32,502 nucleotides of DNA from Candidatus Aminicenantota bacterium (GCA_023133225.1 JAGLWV010000056.1:1-32502), one strand, 5' to 3'. Shown: positions 4,247 to 27,190, counted from the first letter of the stretch. The notes: a model not told the origin generated them from the letters alone. Made by a program: numbers and translations.

Positions 4247-6808
4247 ATGAATTGCTCTAAGTGCTACTTCGACAATCCCGCTGATACACGTTTTTGTGGC
4301 AACTGCGGAACCCAGATAAAACCCTCAGAAAAGACTTCTGATTCTTTCACCGCAACAGCCCAAACTCCCATTAGAGAATTTACCCGGGGAAGCACTCTGG
4401 TAAAAAGATACGAAATCATCGAAAAGTTGGGCAGAGGAGGTATGGGTCAAGTCTTTAGAGTAGTGGATAAGACAATAAATGAAGAGATGGCTTTAAAACT
4501 TATAAATCCTGCGATCGCTTCAAATGAGAAGACAGTTGAGCGCTTCAAAAACGAACTGAAACTTGCCCGCAAGATAACCCATAAGAATGTGTGTAGGATG
4601 TATGACCTCAATGAATCGGAAGGAACTCTTTTCATCACCATGGAGTATGTGCCAGGTGAAGATTTAAAGAGCATGATAAGAATGATGGGACAGTTAAGTG
4701 TGGGCAGAGCCATTTCCGCAGCCAAGCAGGTATGCGAAGGCCTGGCTGAAGCGCACAGACTGGAGGTTGTACACCGTGATCTAAAGCCCCAGAACATCAT
4801 GATAGATAAAGAAGGGAATACCCGGATTATGGATTTTGGAGTTGCCCGCTCTTTGAAAGCAGAAGGGATAACAGGTGCTGGAATGATGGTTGGCACGCCT
4901 GAGTACATGTCTCCGGAGCAGGTGAAAGGGGAAGCAACAGACCAGCGTTCGGATATTTATGCTCTGGGAGTCATCCTTTTTGAAATGTTGTCCGGAAGGC
5001 TGCCTTTTGAAGGGGATACATCTTTAAGTATTGCTTTAAAACATAAGACAGATCCACCTCCGGATCCCAGGGAGTTCAATGCTCAGATTCCTGAAAATCT
5101 CAGCCTCGTTATATTGAAATGTATGGAGAAGGAAAAAGAGAAGAGGTATCAGGGAGCAGAGGAGCTTCTTTCAGAACTGAACAAGATAGAGGAAGAAATT
5201 TCCACCGAAGAGAGAATTCCCCCAGCGAAAAAGCCTGGAGCAGTAACTCCAAGAAAACGGTTGGTTTCTTTTTTATTACCAGGAATTCTTTTCGCTGCCA
5301 TAATAGCAATTCTTGGATATTTGTTCTTGCCAGGAATTCTGCAGAAAGAAAAGCCAGGTAAAGAAATATTCGGTGAAATAAAGTGGAAAAACTCCATTGC
5401 AATACTTCCTTTTAAAGATTTAAGCTCGCAAAAAGACCAGCAGCCACTTTGCGAAGCGATGACGGATGCAATCATTACAAAACTGGCCAGCATTGTTGAA
5501 TTGAAAGTCATTCCCTATTATTCAGTGCAGCGATATAAAGATACGGATAAAAGTCCTAAAGAAATTGGAGAGGAGTTGGATGTTAAAACAATCCTATCGC
5601 TGAATCTTCAGAAAGACGGAAATTTAATCCTTGTCAGAGGACAGTTAAGCGATGTAAAGGAAGATTTTGTCTTAGATTCATACGAATACGAGTCAGAGTT
5701 TGTAGGTATTTTTAAAGTTCAAGATACAATATCCAAAAACATAGCCTCCCGATTGAAGGTCCGGCTTGTCGAAGAGAGATTAAACTCTATCAAAAAAAAA
5801 GAACCGAAAGATTCTGGGGCTTACAAATACTACGTTTGGGGAAAGTATTTTGAGAAAAAATATAAAGATTTTCAGGAACGAAGTGATTTTGAGGAGGCAG
5901 TGAAGAATTATGAAAGAGCAATAGATGTCGATCCCGATTATGCTTTAGCCTTCTGGAGCTTGGGCAACATCTACCAGGCTTTATTTGTTAAAGACGAAAT
6001 ATGGAAATATTTTGATTTAATGGAAAAAAACTACGAGAATGCCTATCAAATAGACCAGGATTTAGCAGAAACGAATGCAGGCCTTGGGTGGGTTTACTAT
6101 TATAAAGGAGAATTGGACGAGGCCTATAACTATTATAAGAGAGCCTTCGAATTAGACCCGAATAGTGCAGAGATTAATTACCATGTTGGCGGTTTTCTAA
6201 AGGATATTGGTTTATACCCCACGGCTATTGAATTTTATTCTAGAGCTATAAAGCTTGACCCATTAGATATAAGCTATCGTCGCCTTTGTGCCCGCTGTTA
6301 TATGTACATTGGAGAATATGAAGAAGCTGTTCATCATCTAAAGGAAGCATTTGAATTTGGACCAGATAATGTCAGACTCCATTTTTTTTATGCTAGAGTC
6401 CTGATAATGATGAAAAAATATGATGAGGCCGGCAGAGAAATTGCCAGGGTAAAGAAACTCGAACTGGACAATCCTAACGTTCGATATTACAAAGCTTGGA
6501 TATTAGCAGTAAAGGGGGAAAAAGAAAAAGCATTAGCGATTATTAGAGAAGTTGAGGATCCCGTTTATCTAACCTATCTTCTGTCTAACATATATGCCAT
6601 TCTGGGAATGAAAGATGAAGCGATTGAAAATATCAAAGAATCCATTGAAAAAGGATTTCATGAAACACAAGGATTTCTTCATTCATATCTCGTATTAATA
6701 AACAATCATTTTTATGACAGCCTCCGTGATGATCCTCGTTTCAAAGAAATAGTAAAAAAAGAAAATAAAAAGTACCGAGAAAGAAAAAAAAAGTATGGAA
6801 TATTTTGA
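4247..6808 (+). CDS. membrane Ser/Thr protein kinase with zinc ribbon and TPR domain
   Basis: An 853-residue protein. Residues 1-24 form a zinc ribbon (Cys3, Cys6, Cys17, Cys20). Residues about 55-320 are a Hanks-type kinase: glycine loop GRGGMGQVF at 62-70, ATP lysine Lys84 in MALKLI, HRDLKPQN from His176, DFG at 196-198, and GTPEYMSPEQ as the activation-loop end. All catalytic residues are present. A basic segment leads to one transmembrane helix at about 341-363. Residues about 384-505 (IAILPFKDLS onwards) look like the TolB/FlgO-like beta-alpha domain found in such kinases, followed by about eight TPR units to the end, probably on the outer side of the inner membrane. GAGGGAGG precedes the ATG. 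Substrates are unknown. This architecture is common in Acidobacteria-like genomes. Confidence 0.9.
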   Translation: MNCSKCYFDNPADTRFCGNCGTQIKPSEKTSDSFTATAQTPIREFTRGSTLVKRYEIIEKLGRGGMGQVFRVVDKTINEEMALKLINPAIASNEKTVERFKNELKLARKITHKNVCRMYDLNESEGTLFITMEYVPGEDLKSMIRMMGQLSVGRAISAAKQVCEGLAEAHRLEVVHRDLKPQNIMIDKEGNTRIMDFGVARSLKAEGITGAGMMVGTPEYMSPEQVKGEATDQRSDIYALGVILFEMLSGRLPFEGDTSLSIALKHKTDPPPDPREFNAQIPENLSLVILKCMEKEKEKRYQGAEELLSELNKIEEEISTEERIPPAKKPGAVTPRKRLVSFLLPGILFAAIIAILGYLFLPGILQKEKPGKEIFGEIKWKNSIAILPFKDLSSQKDQQPLCEAMTDAIITKLASIVELKVIPYYSVQRYKDTDKSPKEIGEELDVKTILSLNLQKDGNLILVRGQLSDVKEDFVLDSYEYESEFVGIFKVQDTISKNIASRLKVRLVEERLNSIKKKEPKDSGAYKYYVWGKYFEKKYKDFQERSDFEEAVKNYERAIDVDPDYALAFWSLGNIYQALFVKDEIWKYFDLMEKNYENAYQIDQDLAETNAGLGWVYYYKGELDEAYNYYKRAFELDPNSAEINYHVGGFLKDIGLYPTAIEFYSRAIKLDPLDISYRRLCARCYMYIGEYEEAVHHLKEAFEFGPDNVRLHFFYARVLIMMKKYDEAGREIARVKKLELDNPNVRYYKAWILAVKGEKEKALAIIREVEDPVYLTYLLSNIYAILGMKDEAIENIKESIEKGFHETQGFLHSYLVLINNHFYDSLRDDPRFKEIVKKENKKYRERKKKYGIF

Positions 6809-11613: not shown

Positions 11614-12642
11614 TTACCTATTATTAATAGTCGATTCCAGCTCAGAAAGGATTGTTATGATTTCCTTAAATGAAGGGGGTTCCTCGAACATCATCATTTG
11701 CATATCCTCATAGTCTTTCTGTAACTCTGGGAGACGAAAATCAGGAGGACTGAGATGCAGCATTCCTGGTCTTGCTTCCTCATATTTCGCCCACCCACAT
11801 CGAAAGAATAGTTTCTTATGCTGCGCTACGGCCTCCAATAAGTCATAGTCCTTTTTAGCTTTATCACCAAAAACACTCTTGGCGAGCATGGCCAAATCAT
11901 AGTAGCGACGAAAATAACGTGGTTTAAACGGCTTATTTATGGGACGATTCGCCTCTTGATGAAGAATAGTGGCTTTCTCCCAGAAGATGCGTTCAGCTGT
12001 TAAAGCGATGACTTTACACTCTTTCTTAATTTTAAAGACATCGGGATAGTATTCAGCGGCATAAGGCTTTACCTTAGCCTTGCAGGTTGGCCACGGATCT
12101 GCTCGGCAGCCGAACTCCAGTTTAACGAGAGGATCCACATAAGAACCGGAGGCGAGCTCCACTGCTCCGGGGTAGAGGAAGAGCAATGTCTGTCCGTCCT
12201 CATCCTGTTTATCAATAACCACATCCCACGGCTCGTTGTTTACTTTCAAATAGGATGCAAATATCTCTTTCAGCTTAGGCTGCAAATAAGAACCAACATA
12301 CTGCCTGCACTCGGCAACCATTCGTTTGATCAATCGATCACGTTTTTTATTGCTTGTTATGTTAGCTGGATCGTTTTCACCTTCAAATCCGAGCAACGCT
12401 CGATTAACAGTCAAATCGATATCTTCGGAAAAACGATGAATGACCTTATAAACCTTCGAAAGCGTTGTTCCGCCTCTGAATATCAAATGCTTTCTCAGAT
12501 CGGGCAAACTGAATAGGCAATGAAGAGTCCAGCAAACCCAGAAATCCTTTTCCACAATAAGAGGATCCACGTTCATCTGGCTGCTCGTCTCTTCGAACAA
12601 CCGTTGCCGAAAGCCGGCATCTCGTGCCGCCACACCGTCCAA
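11614..12642 (-). CDS. abiEii: AbiEii/AbiGii-type nucleotidyltransferase toxin
   Basis: A 342-residue protein of the AbiEii/AbiGii toxin family, the toxin of type IV toxin-antitoxin systems. Visible motifs are VEKDFWV (30-36), FRGGTTLSKVY (55-65) and SEDIDL (72-77), the nucleotidyltransferase G-T-x-L-S and D-x-D elements, and a C-terminal RRYYDLAML helix. The likely start is TTG at 12642-12640, two bases after the antitoxin stop codon, with a strong GGGGGAGGAG inside the end of the antitoxin gene, so translation is coupled. Known AbiEii enzymes transfer nucleotides to RNA (tRNA in studied relatives) to halt growth after phage attack. All key residues look intact. Order and spacing with the partner gene make the assignment firm. 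Confidence 0.9.
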   Translation of the reverse strand: MDGVAARDAGFRQRLFEETSSQMNVDPLIVEKDFWVCWTLHCLFSLPDLRKHLIFRGGTTLSKVYKVIHRFSEDIDLTVNRALLGFEGENDPANITSNKKRDRLIKRMVAECRQYVGSYLQPKLKEIFASYLKVNNEPWDVVIDKQDEDGQTLLFLYPGAVELASGSYVDPLVKLEFGCRADPWPTCKAKVKPYAAEYYPDVFKIKKECKVIALTAERIFWEKATILHQEANRPINKPFKPRYFRRYYDLAMLAKSVFGDKAKKDYDLLEAVAQHKKLFFRCGWAKYEEARPGMLHLSPPDFRLPELQKDYEDMQMMMFEEPPSFKEIITILSELESTINNR

Positions 12643-12644
12643 GC

Positions 12645-13265
12645 TTACTCCTCCCCCGGTTCTCCTTTAGATGTGATTCGTTGGACTACTTCCCAAATCC
12701 AGTCCTCCATATATCTGGCATCTTTTAATAGTTTCTTTCGATCAGCGTCGGAAAGTTGTTGTCGTAGATGGTAGATTATATTTTTCTCAATCCATCCTTT
12801 CCCTAAAAAGCGAAGAGCCTGAGTGACGAGAATGCTGATCTCGTTTCCGGGCCGCATCTCTCGTGGCTTTACTCGCTTGAATATCAGAATTCGGTTGTTG
12901 ATTTTGACTGTCCGCGATTTGCCATTCGTAAGGTAAACAATTTTTGCTGGTACCTGTGTTGATAGTCCAAGAAGGTTTGCTGCTAGAGCGCCAGAGGGTT
13001 GAATGCTAACCCCGTTTTTCCGTGCTATTGCCTGTGCTACCTGTTGTATGTCTGGGCTTAGTCTACCTCCCAACTCCTCATCCTCCCGTGGAAAATCATA
13101 AATTCCGGTCGTTACCCGGCGGATGATACCCTGGGCAAACAATCTAGAAAGGGTTTTATCGACCGGATTCCGGTTGCCAAGATCAAGAAAATCCTTGCTT
13201 GAAAATACGCAACCTCTTCCTTTCCCTCTTACTCGTGCAAGTATTTGATTTCGAAGAGATTGCAT
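12645..13265 (-). CDS. abiEi: AbiEi-type antitoxin (DUF6088-like)
   Basis: A 206-residue protein with an N-terminal winged helix (VFSSKDFLDLG onwards, then LSRLFAQGIIRRVTTGIYDF), the DNA-binding part of AbiEi antitoxins, followed by a C-terminal domain with SGALAANLLGLSTQVP and YLTNGKSRTVKINNR, the pattern of the DUF6088/AbiEi C-terminal family. The ATG at 13265 has a poor Shine-Dalgarno (GACGCA region). A perfect inverted repeat lies 21 bp upstream and a promoter immediately beyond it, matching the known negative autoregulation of AbiE operons by AbiEi. It overlaps the toxin's translational signals, so both are one operon. In this type IV system the antitoxin does not need to bind the toxin directly. 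Confidence 0.88.
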   Translation of the reverse strand: MQSLRNQILARVRGKGRGCVFSSKDFLDLGNRNPVDKTLSRLFAQGIIRRVTTGIYDFPREDEELGGRLSPDIQQVAQAIARKNGVSIQPSGALAANLLGLSTQVPAKIVYLTNGKSRTVKINNRILIFKRVKPREMRPGNEISILVTQALRFLGKGWIEKNIIYHLRQQLSDADRKKLLKDARYMEDWIWEVVQRITSKGEPGEE

Positions 13266-13285
13266 TGCGTCTTAATGAACCTTTT

Positions 13286-13315
13286 TGTCAGAAGTGAGAT
13301 GCCTCACTTCTGACA
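13286..13315. promoter_or_regulatory. perfect inverted-repeat operator of the AbiE operon
   Basis: Two perfect 13-nt arms (TGTCAGAAGTGAG at 13286-13298 and its complement at 13303-13315) are separated by 4 nt. The repeat begins one base downstream of the -10 box and covers the expected transcription start. AbiEi proteins are known to bind inverted repeats in their promoter, so this is the likely autoregulatory site. Confidence 0.75.
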
Positions 13316-13316
13316 G

Positions 13317-13344
13317 AATATATTATTTTGACAGTAAATATCAA
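13317..13344 (-). promoter_or_regulatory. sigma70-like promoter of the AbiE operon
   Basis: On the minus strand TTGATA (13344-13339) is followed after 16 bp by TATATT (13322-13317), with the inverted repeat directly downstream. Confidence 0.6.
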
Positions 13345-13382
13345 CCTTATTTTTATACCGTAGGGATGGTTATTTAGTCAAT

Positions 13383-13430
13383 ATTTTCTTCAATTTCTAC
13401 GCGTTAACACCTTAGTGTGACATTATCACC
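13383..13430 (-). repeat. 48-nt dispersed repeat, copy A
   Basis: This segment aligns without gaps to 18769-18816 with 39 of 48 identical bases. The best conserved block is GACATTATCA with the preceding CTTAGTG and TTAACA. Both copies lie upstream of minus-strand genes in the same orientation. Confidence 0.6.
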
Positions 13431-13678
13431 AGTGAAGCAAAGGGCCTGGATTAAGAACGGCAGGTAGATATGCGGCATTTTTTTAGTAACATTCTTAACA
13501 GGATTCAATATGAGAACAGTCAGAAGCGCAAGGAGCGTTAAGCCAGCGAAGCAGATTTAGAGTTGTCTTTTTCTTCTATAGATTTCTTTTTGGTTCTCGT
13601 ATTCTGAGAGAAGCTTTTCAAAGCAATGAACCTGCAATGACATCAATTCTATGAAAGACTTATTCATTAAAAAAGAAT

Positions 13679-13707
13679 TTGACCTCCCTAATCCTCAATG
13701 ATATAAA
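13679..13707 (+). promoter_or_regulatory. sigma70-like promoter for the TIR-domain gene
   Basis: TTGACC (13679-13684), a 17-bp spacer and TATAAA (13702-13707), about 50 bp before the GTG start. This is one of the best promoter matches in the window. Confidence 0.6.
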
Positions 13708-13755
13708 TCAGTTAGTTTAGAAAGATACTGAATACATGCCCTTAAGGAGCATAGG

Positions 13756-15294
13756 GTGAAGTGGGATTTATTTATTTGTCATGCAAGTGAGGATAAAAAA
13801 GATTTCATCCAGCCTTTTGTTAAAAAACTCGTCTCTTGTGGTCTAAAGGTCTGGCATGACGATGACATTCTTGTGTTAGGAGATAGCTTAAGGCGGTCGA
13901 TTGATGAGGGATTGTCGAAATCGAGATATGGAATTGTAGTTCTCAGCCCTTCTTTCTTTGAAAAAGAGTGGCCACAAAAAGAGCTAGATGGACTTGTCGC
14001 AAGAGAAAGGGAGGGTATAAAAGTAATCTTCCCTATATGGCACAAAGTTGAATTTAATGATGTGGTAAAATATTCACCAACTCTTGCAGATAGAATTGCT
14101 GCAAAAAGTTCTGAGGGGATCGATGAAGTCGTTGATAAAGTAAAAAGATCGATTCGAGACAAGAACGAATCCACTACAATAGATAGCTCGGAATATTACC
14201 GCGATCTTTCGGAAGAAGAAGCTAATGTGCTTCTGTTAGCTCTCCATTTCGGGGGAGAAATAAAAATAATTGAAACAGATCAAATAGGAAGATTCCTTCA
14301 ACTTGGTGACCGAGATTATTATGACATTAATCATCCCGAAATACGAATATCATATCTTGAAGCTTTAAAAAGATTAATTGATAGAAACCTTGTTTTTCAG
14401 GAGACTGAAAGATGGTTTAATCTCACCAAAATCGGTTTCGAATATGCGAGAAGTTTTGAGACAAATGACCTAATGGAAAAAGCTTGGCACTACTATGAGA
14501 ATGAAAAGAATTATACTGAAGCCATTAGACTTTATAGAGAAATAGTTAAGAAATATCCAGAGTCTGGAACATCTAAAGAAGCTCAAAAGATGATAGGGAT
14601 AAATTATTTACATTTAGATGATTCAATAAATGCTGAATTAGAATTAAAGAAATGCATTGATATTGGGAATGATTTTTCCAGTGCATTTTTTTATTATGGA
14701 GAAGCTCTCCTAAAAAATAAGAAATTCCAAGAAGCAAAAACTGCTTTTGAACATTCTTTATCTAAACCTGATACCCCTGATTGGATCAAAACTGAAGCGC
14801 CAGAAATAATTAAATTATGTGATAAAAAGATTATTTCAGAGTTGGCTTCGCTGGCCGATCAAAAATACGAAGTAGAACAAGCCAAAATTAAAGCAGAAAT
14901 TGAGATGGAAGAAAAAGAAATAATAGAACAAAAGGGTACTCAAGGTCTTCGTTGGTCGAGTGTTTTAGCCAGAGAATTGTTGAATATGAACATTGCAGGG
15001 ATTCAAAGGAAAATAGGCTTAAGGCTCGAACTAGATAAAAATATCATATTCTCATGCCAGCCGATAATATCAGAGGAGGAAATTGCATTTTTATATAACA
15101 GATTAAAGGCAATTGCAGATTCTGAAAGAAAGGTTTTAAAAGAGAAAATGATGGTTATTTATAAGGAATGTCATACTGAAAACTTATTGAGCACAGATAC
15201 TTGCAAAATAGATAAAGAAATAGATATGTCATTGCAGGGGTGTTTAACAAATTTAAAAATTGAAAAAGAGCAGGTCTTAATAAAGACTGAATGA
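13756..15294 (+). CDS. TIR-domain protein with winged-helix and TPR-like regions
   Basis: A 512-residue protein starting at GTG with AAGGAG six bases upstream. Residues 1-130 are a TIR domain: LFICHASEDK (5-14), GLKVWHDDDILVLGDSL (29-45), YGIVVLSPSFF (58-68) and the catalytic-type glutamate Glu76 in EWPQKEL. This points to an active NAD-cleaving enzyme. Residues about 150-235 look like a winged helix (ALKRLIDRNLVFQETERWF, then LTKIGFEYA). Residues about 240-360 form TPR-like helical pairs (YYENEKNYTEAIRLYREIV, then FYYGEALLKNKKFQEA). A Lys/Glu-rich helix at about 365-395 and a helical C-terminal domain of about 110 residues follow, which I do not recognise. It lies next to an AbiE pair, so a role in phage defence is likely but inferred. 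No partner gene is visible downstream. Confidence 0.85.
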   Translation: MKWDLFICHASEDKKDFIQPFVKKLVSCGLKVWHDDDILVLGDSLRRSIDEGLSKSRYGIVVLSPSFFEKEWPQKELDGLVAREREGIKVIFPIWHKVEFNDVVKYSPTLADRIAAKSSEGIDEVVDKVKRSIRDKNESTTIDSSEYYRDLSEEEANVLLLALHFGGEIKIIETDQIGRFLQLGDRDYYDINHPEIRISYLEALKRLIDRNLVFQETERWFNLTKIGFEYARSFETNDLMEKAWHYYENEKNYTEAIRLYREIVKKYPESGTSKEAQKMIGINYLHLDDSINAELELKKCIDIGNDFSSAFFYYGEALLKNKKFQEAKTAFEHSLSKPDTPDWIKTEAPEIIKLCDKKIISELASLADQKYEVEQAKIKAEIEMEEKEIIEQKGTQGLRWSSVLARELLNMNIAGIQRKIGLRLELDKNIIFSCQPIISEEEIAFLYNRLKAIADSERKVLKEKMMVIYKECHTENLLSTDTCKIDKEIDMSLQGCLTNLKIEKEQVLIKTE

Positions 15295-15353
15295 TTTTTA
15301 GAATTGAAATTTGTTTAAATTTTATTTTTGAGCTATATTCAAGTATTTTAGAA

Positions 15354-15573: not shown

Positions 15574-15684
15574 TGTCATTCCCGCGAAAGCGGGAATCCA
15601 GGACTATCTACATATACGCCAATACAAATCAATCTAGCGTAAAACATTTTTTATTTCTGGATTCCCGCCTTCGCGGGAATGACA
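15574..15684. repeat. REP-like inverted pair
   Basis: Two REP-type units face each other: TGTCATTCCCGCGAAAGCGG at 15574 (continuing to GGAATCCAG) and its near-complement, CTGGATTCCCGCC... to GAATGACA, at 15657-15684. Each unit has its own small GC-rich hairpin (CCCGCGAAAGCGGG). The same core recurs at 26898-27135. REP pairs are common between convergent genes and can act as transcript ends. Confidence 0.75.
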
Positions 15685-26897: not shown

Positions 26898-27190
26898 CTG
26901 TCATTCCCGCGGAGCCTGTGCCCGCGCAGGCGGGGTAGCGGGAATCCAGGCTTGTTCCCGCGGAAGCGGGAAACCAGAAATACAAAAGACTCTTATCCAG
27001 ATATCTCTGGATTCCCGCCTGCGCGGGAATGACAAAAAAGCAGGAATGACATTCTTAAAAATGCTACTCCGCCTGCGCGGGAATGACAAAAAAGCAGGAA
27101 TGACATTCTTAAAAATGCTACTCCGCCTGCGCGGGCACAGGTTCCGCAGGAATGACATTTTGTGAAACAGGAATGACATTTTGTAAAACA
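26898..27190. repeat. REP-like cluster with nested inverted and tandem repeats
   Basis: The cluster contains several copies of the REP core (TCATTCCCGCG...GCGGGAATCCAG and its inverse). Within it a 54-bp unit, starting CGCCTGCGCGGGAATGAC, is repeated exactly in tandem at 27016-27069 and 27070-27123 with a 12-nt third start. A GC-rich block at about 26908-26936 recurs inverted at about 27122-27150. Two 21-bp units (CAGGAATGACATTTTGTRAAA) at 27147-27188 close it. Open frames through it, reading FPRRRESR, are artefacts of the repeat. Confidence 0.8.

Follow-up and report, generated by a model that had tools for sequence, protein, structure and literature searches.

In the window (the whole 32,502-nt stretch of DNA analysed, which is an entire contig of a metagenome-assembled genome of a Candidatus Aminicenantota bacterium, 3.08 Mb in 406 contigs and ~80% complete), a TIR gene probably encodes an independent single-gene TIR NADase that would be activated by clustering in the manner of SpbK and Swarozyc, next to what appears to be a separate, ordinary, autoregulated AbiE pair; we put the probability of this reading, which leans on analogy with those proteins, at roughly 60%. 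The gene lies on the plus strand (13756..15294) with a GTG start preceded by AAGGAG at 13742-13747, and its product of 512 aa carries a TIR domain, a winged-helix-like segment, TPR repeats and a C-terminal helical domain. The original prediction had let the gene end at 15297, and the stop codon actually ends at 15294. The domain content of the protein, its catalytic residues, the sharing of its C-terminal domain with other proteins, the intactness of the AbiE pair and a candidate operator upstream of that pair were all seen directly.

The TIR domain occupies residues 1-135 (13756..14160, plus strand) and matches Pfam TIR_2 (E=6e-17). In phmmer searches against the PDB it groups with AbTIR, TcpB and PdTIR at E values of ~1e-36 to 1e-41, the best matches being 7uwg (E=5e-41) and 8g83 (E=8e-41), and it is identical to AbTIR at 66 of 118 positions (~56%). 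The WxxxE motif with the catalytic glutamate is present as W72 and E76, which correspond to AbTIR W204 and E208; the catalytic-type Glu76 of the original prediction was thus correctly numbered and is kept in the AbTIR alignment. Mutation of eight AbTIR positions inhibits NADase activity, and W204 is required to form 2'cADPR (PMC11374754). Because six of these eight residues are kept here (D35, V61, W72, E76, R83 and Y106), the domain is likely to be enzymatically active; S140 and R151 are replaced by Cys8 and Gln19, which leaves some doubt. Among 142 genomes of the class, an AbTIR-type TIR was present in few.

No PADLOC TIR system model matches the protein over its full length, in line with the earlier statement that it fits no named TIR system. 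The best PADLOC match, PDC-S66 (4e-56), covers only profile positions 148-279 of 282, and ThsB models (1.4e-33) match the TIR part only. Full-length homologues that include the non-TIR part were found neither in genome contigs and viral contigs nor in the phylum and class genomes, and in plasmids and phages the TIR part alone was matched. Keyword searches of a literature library turned up no account of a bacterial protein with this sort of TIR-TPR make-up. Other TIR architectures were also seen: two proteins of viral contigs (L103:1376-2683 and L107:2887-4305) have a TIR domain followed by what appears, by eye, to be a DnaB/RecA-like ATPase, and a locus in genome G380 (L082:4886-9325) holds three paralogues in tandem whose N-termini are alike, two of which have a TIR match, and the one that was scanned matches CHAT and TIR_2.

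The middle of the protein begins with the winged-helix-like segment (residues 139-240; 14170..14475, plus strand), assigned from weak profile matches and a low-confidence AF2 model. Its one weak homologue is in L038 (34% identity, E=2e-5), a profile built from two sequences weakly matches the winged helix of eS10 (E=0.02), and hhalign against the wing of the zinc-ribbon family described below gave P=0.001 with a probability of just 21%. Searched with the profile, viral contigs gave no match and plasmids a best E of 0.2. In a single-sequence AF2 model of the isolated segment (mean pLDDT 55), helices are followed by a C-terminal beta hairpin. At this pLDDT the winged helix that had been proposed is plausible, although the fold itself is unproven. 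Foldseek searches with this model and that of the C-terminal region returned nothing at E<=0.001, as expected because the models are of low confidence. The TPR repeats that follow (residues 241-355; 14476..14820, plus strand) are borne out by Pfam TPR_6 (7e-8) and TPR_2 (1.6e-7), both above the curated cut-offs, at residues 246-270 and 310-336.

The C-terminal helical domain (14821..15291, plus strand) was delimited by genome search, phmmer and AF2, and what had been described as an unrecognised C-terminus of 110 residues is really ~140-150 residues long and has relatives. It spans residues ~360-505 with a shared core at 364-502, has a long helix that starts at residue 342, and contains the motif RWSSVLAREL at 399-408. 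By sequence it had no Pfam match, no PADLOC match and no convincing PDB match. When the whole protein was searched against the 142 class genomes, a protein of L034 matched residues 364-502 with 34% identity over 139 aa (E=7.1e-19), and a second protein with the domain, in L003, is 24-26% identical; pairwise phmmer gave 2e-22 and 2e-11 for the two relatives. With the three sequences, AF2 predicted a bundle of long helices (342-393, 402-433, 440-472 and 476-511) with a pLDDT of ~80-90 over most of 371-500. A region that is helical, highly charged and opened by a long helix could owe such matches to coiled-coil composition alone, without common descent, yet we consider this scarcely credible: composition is ruled out as the cause of the match because shuffling gave z-scores of 29 and 15 and reversal of the sequence brought the score down to background level, 27 positions are invariant, RxSSxxAR among them, and in the genome searches no match due to TPRs or coils came anywhere near it. 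A profile of the domain found no match in viral contigs, and in 396 genomes of the phylum its matches below E=1e-4 were confined to the three members already known.

The relatives differ from the window protein in the effector and in the order of parts. Both come from Aminicenantes, begin with a zinc-ribbon-like segment and carry a different effector at the C-terminal end, SLFN_AlbA_2 in L034 and a CAP12/Pycsar-type TIR (CAP12-PCTIR) in L003, which also matches the PADLOC candidate PDC-S35. Their order is zinc ribbon, winged-helix-like segment, C-terminal domain and effector, and that of the window protein is effector, winged-helix-like segment, TPR and C-terminal domain. A third copy with the L034 architecture (genome G323, L064:6001-7469) is split by a frameshift and may be a pseudogene or reflect a sequencing error. 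The idea that the C-terminal domain might be linked to the N-terminal part of PDC-S35 was given up, because isolated C-terminal domains were not matched and the examined plasmid relatives of the L003 protein begin at the TIR. In proteins without the C-terminal domain, the zinc-ribbon segment precedes still other effectors, among them a ThsB-like TIR (L053) and a DUF4062/deoxyribosyltransferase-like domain (L058). As an observation of its own, the N-terminal module of zinc ribbon and winged-helix-like segment stands before varied effectors or alone (L053:1129-2145, L058:1126-2034, L060:1501-2025, L034 and L003), and it had no Pfam match where scanned.

Bacterial immune proteins typically exchange their effectors while another domain stays constant. 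The recurrence of the C-terminal domain with three different effectors is suggestive, from three architectures in one class, of a sensor or assembly module, and it supports the earlier idea that the non-TIR part could be the TIR protein's own sensor. We tentatively propose, as a possibility that falls somewhat short of even odds, that residues ~360-505 are an undescribed sensor or assembly module of bacterial immunity, joined in Aminicenantes to at least three effectors (AbTIR-type TIR, CAP12/Pycsar-type TIR and SLFN_AlbA_2), with the window protein as its single-gene TIR version. Most bacterial TIR proteins are named after their effector, and their trigger is usually unknown. A domain that is retained while the effector is swapped points to the trigger side, and this one offers a handle for finding more such proteins, here in a phylum that has been little studied.

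The AbiE pair lies divergently from the TIR gene, on the minus strand, across a 490-bp divergent promoter region, and all three reading frames are intact. The AbiEi antitoxin (12645..13265, 206 aa) is of the DUF6088 type (Pfam E=4e-41, PADLOC 3.5e-66), and the AbiEii toxin, a nucleotidyltransferase (11614..12642, 342 aa; Pfam AbiEii E=2e-33, PADLOC 1.6e-96), starts at a TTG 2 bases beyond the AbiEi stop and preceded by GGGAGGAG. Motifs I and II of AbiEii toxins are defined as hG[G/S]x15DhD (PMC3985639), and here they are intact as GG-x15-DID at residues 57-76 (G57, G58, R70, D74 and D76); motif IV (+DxxD) reads RRYYD, with the final Asp kept and the first replaced. The claim of an intact AbiEi/AbiEii operon therefore holds on reading frames, Pfam, PADLOC and motifs I and II. 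A palindrome of 36 nt with 16-nt arms (13283..13318) lies directly behind the -10-like TATATT of the abiE promoter, and an AbiEi in L076 that is 74% identical has the same palindrome upstream, where changes in one arm are matched in the other, the pattern expected of a repressor operator. The palindrome is thus a probable AbiEi operator, and from its sequence the pair looks like an ordinary AbiE-type system, probably autoregulated and unrelated to the TIR protein; as such it contributes nothing new. Elsewhere, an AbiEi in genome G326 (L078:6131-7476) stands beside an AbiEii broken into two fragments.

The surroundings give little encouragement to the defence island that had been suggested. The other Pfam-matched proteins of the window (NIF3-like, phosphoesterase, Ser/Thr kinase-TPR, CDF transporter, threonine dehydratase-like enzyme, TolB-like propeller, sortilin/BNR protein, RND efflux genes, LolA-like protein and ThiF) look like ordinary chromosomal functions. 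The kinase at 4247-6808 was tried as a defence gene through its PADLOC match PD-T4-6 and rejected, the match being confined to the kinase domain. In a synteny comparison for an empty site, the counterparts of the flanking genes were ~260 kb apart in G299. Just 3' of the TIR gene, a REP/dRS3-like repeat, TCATTCCCGCGAAAGCGGGAATCCA, forms an inverted pair (15576-15600, plus; 15658-15682, minus) and recurs at 27008-27032; the genome holds 54 sites within 2 mismatches, and the reversed control gave 0. Adjacency and divergent orientation would fit a single composite defence locus in which the TIR protein and AbiE share the promoter region, a reading we hold to be very improbable: six related AbiEi loci that were examined in the class (one of them covered by a short search locus only) all lack an adjoining TIR gene, GC content is 34% in the TIR gene vs 45% in AbiE (a gap of ~11 points, with 42% for the window), and AbiE has its own operator-like palindrome near its start, ~440 bp from the TIR start. 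Joint action of the two, raised in the original prediction, is accordingly unsupported, and the TIR gene and the AbiE pair probably arrived separately.

If the TIR gene is a single-gene system, it would be a self-contained immune-type effector that was acquired sporadically. NADase activity, clustering, sensing and phage defence are what we infer for its product. The AbTIR-like domain would cleave NAD+ to ADP-ribose once TIR domains meet head to tail, with a cyclic ADP-ribose isomer as a probable second product because the ring-closing tryptophan, W72, is kept. The rest of the protein, that is the winged-helix-like segment, the TPRs and the C-terminal helical domain, would by analogy be the switch: at rest it would keep the TIR domains separate, and on binding an invader protein or assembly it would bring them together, much as happens when the sensing domains of SpbK and Swarozyc bind phage portals. 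The C-terminal domain would be a module reused with other effectors. In SpbK and Swarozyc, both one-gene TIR proteins, the non-TIR part binds the phage portal, whereupon the TIR domains cluster into active sites. The sensing domain of Swarozyc has an HTH/winged fold joined via helical stalks, and the winged helix of its AUX domain can bind the phage portal instead of DNA; a winged helix in a TIR protein therefore need not bind DNA. The likeness of the TIR to AbTIR with its Trp and Glu kept, the sharing of the C-terminal domain with the L034 and L003 proteins, the PDC-S35 match of the latter, the one-gene precedents SpbK and Swarozyc, the restriction of the AbTIR-type TIR to few class genomes, the low GC and the fact that no second gene forms an operon with the TIR gene, which stands alone, were counted in favour of the single-gene reading. 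Counted against it were the Cys8 and Gln19 changes, the still putative immune role of the L034 and L003 proteins, and the failure to find a homologue over the full length in the collections searched (phages, plasmids, viral contigs and genomes).

The kept W72, whose AbTIR counterpart is needed for 2'cADPR, and the ThsB matches of the TIR domain would also suit a signal maker, whose cyclic ADP-ribose isomer activates an effector encoded elsewhere, as in ThsB-ThsA, instead of killing by loss of NAD+. We think this unlikely, since no ThsA-like or other candidate effector is found among the neighbouring genes and the ThsB and PDC-S66 models reach no further than the TIR part. It is more doubtful still that the protein works outside defence, as a regulator of transcription or of stress responses, using the TIR for NAD sensing or scaffolding and the winged helix on DNA. 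Such a role would account for the winged-helix-like segment, and the SLFN_AlbA_2 relatives of the C-terminal domain could be regulators, but sporadic occurrence, low GC and an active-type TIR site speak against it, and the winged helices of TIR-like defence proteins can bind a phage portal instead.

Compared with known systems, the single-gene TIR NADase proposed here shares with AbTIR, TcpB and PdTIR the TIR sequence, the Trp and Glu of WxxxE and most NADase residues, and differs in that its TIR stands at the N-terminus, is fused to a winged-helix-like segment, TPRs and the C-terminal helical domain, and has Cys and Gln for S140 and R151. Like SpbK of Bacillus subtilis, whose published mechanism is portal clustering, it would be a single-gene TIR NADase with its own non-TIR part; the TIR of SpbK is C-terminal, however, no relationship can be recognised between the two sensor regions, and the PADLOC spbK model did not match the window protein at E<=0.01. 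The likeness to Swarozyc is one of plan only, with a TIR-like domain first, then a helical stalk and then a sensing domain of HTH/winged fold, whereas DUF4062 is a different TIR-like family, which had no Pfam match in the window protein (TIR_2 did instead), and no TPR is reported for Swarozyc. PDC-S66, which we take to be probably a DUF1883-TIR protein, resembles the window protein in its TIR half and has an N-terminal half that is absent here. With the PDC-S35/PF10137 CAP12-Pycsar TIR proteins the connection runs through the L003 relative, which joins such an effector to the shared C-terminal domain, whereas the window protein has an AbTIR-type TIR; unlike in Thoeris (ThsA/ThsB), a ThsA effector gene was not found next to the TIR gene. 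The neighbouring pair has the gene order and motifs I and II of AbiE type IV toxin-antitoxin systems, with its one promoter palindrome as a candidate for the inverted repeats that AbiEi binds in them, and departs from them in its DUF6088-type antitoxin and in motif IV. Neither the domain combination of the TIR protein nor its C-terminal domain was found in the libraries searched; as a TIR NADase with a fused sensor, the protein would belong to a kind that is already known.
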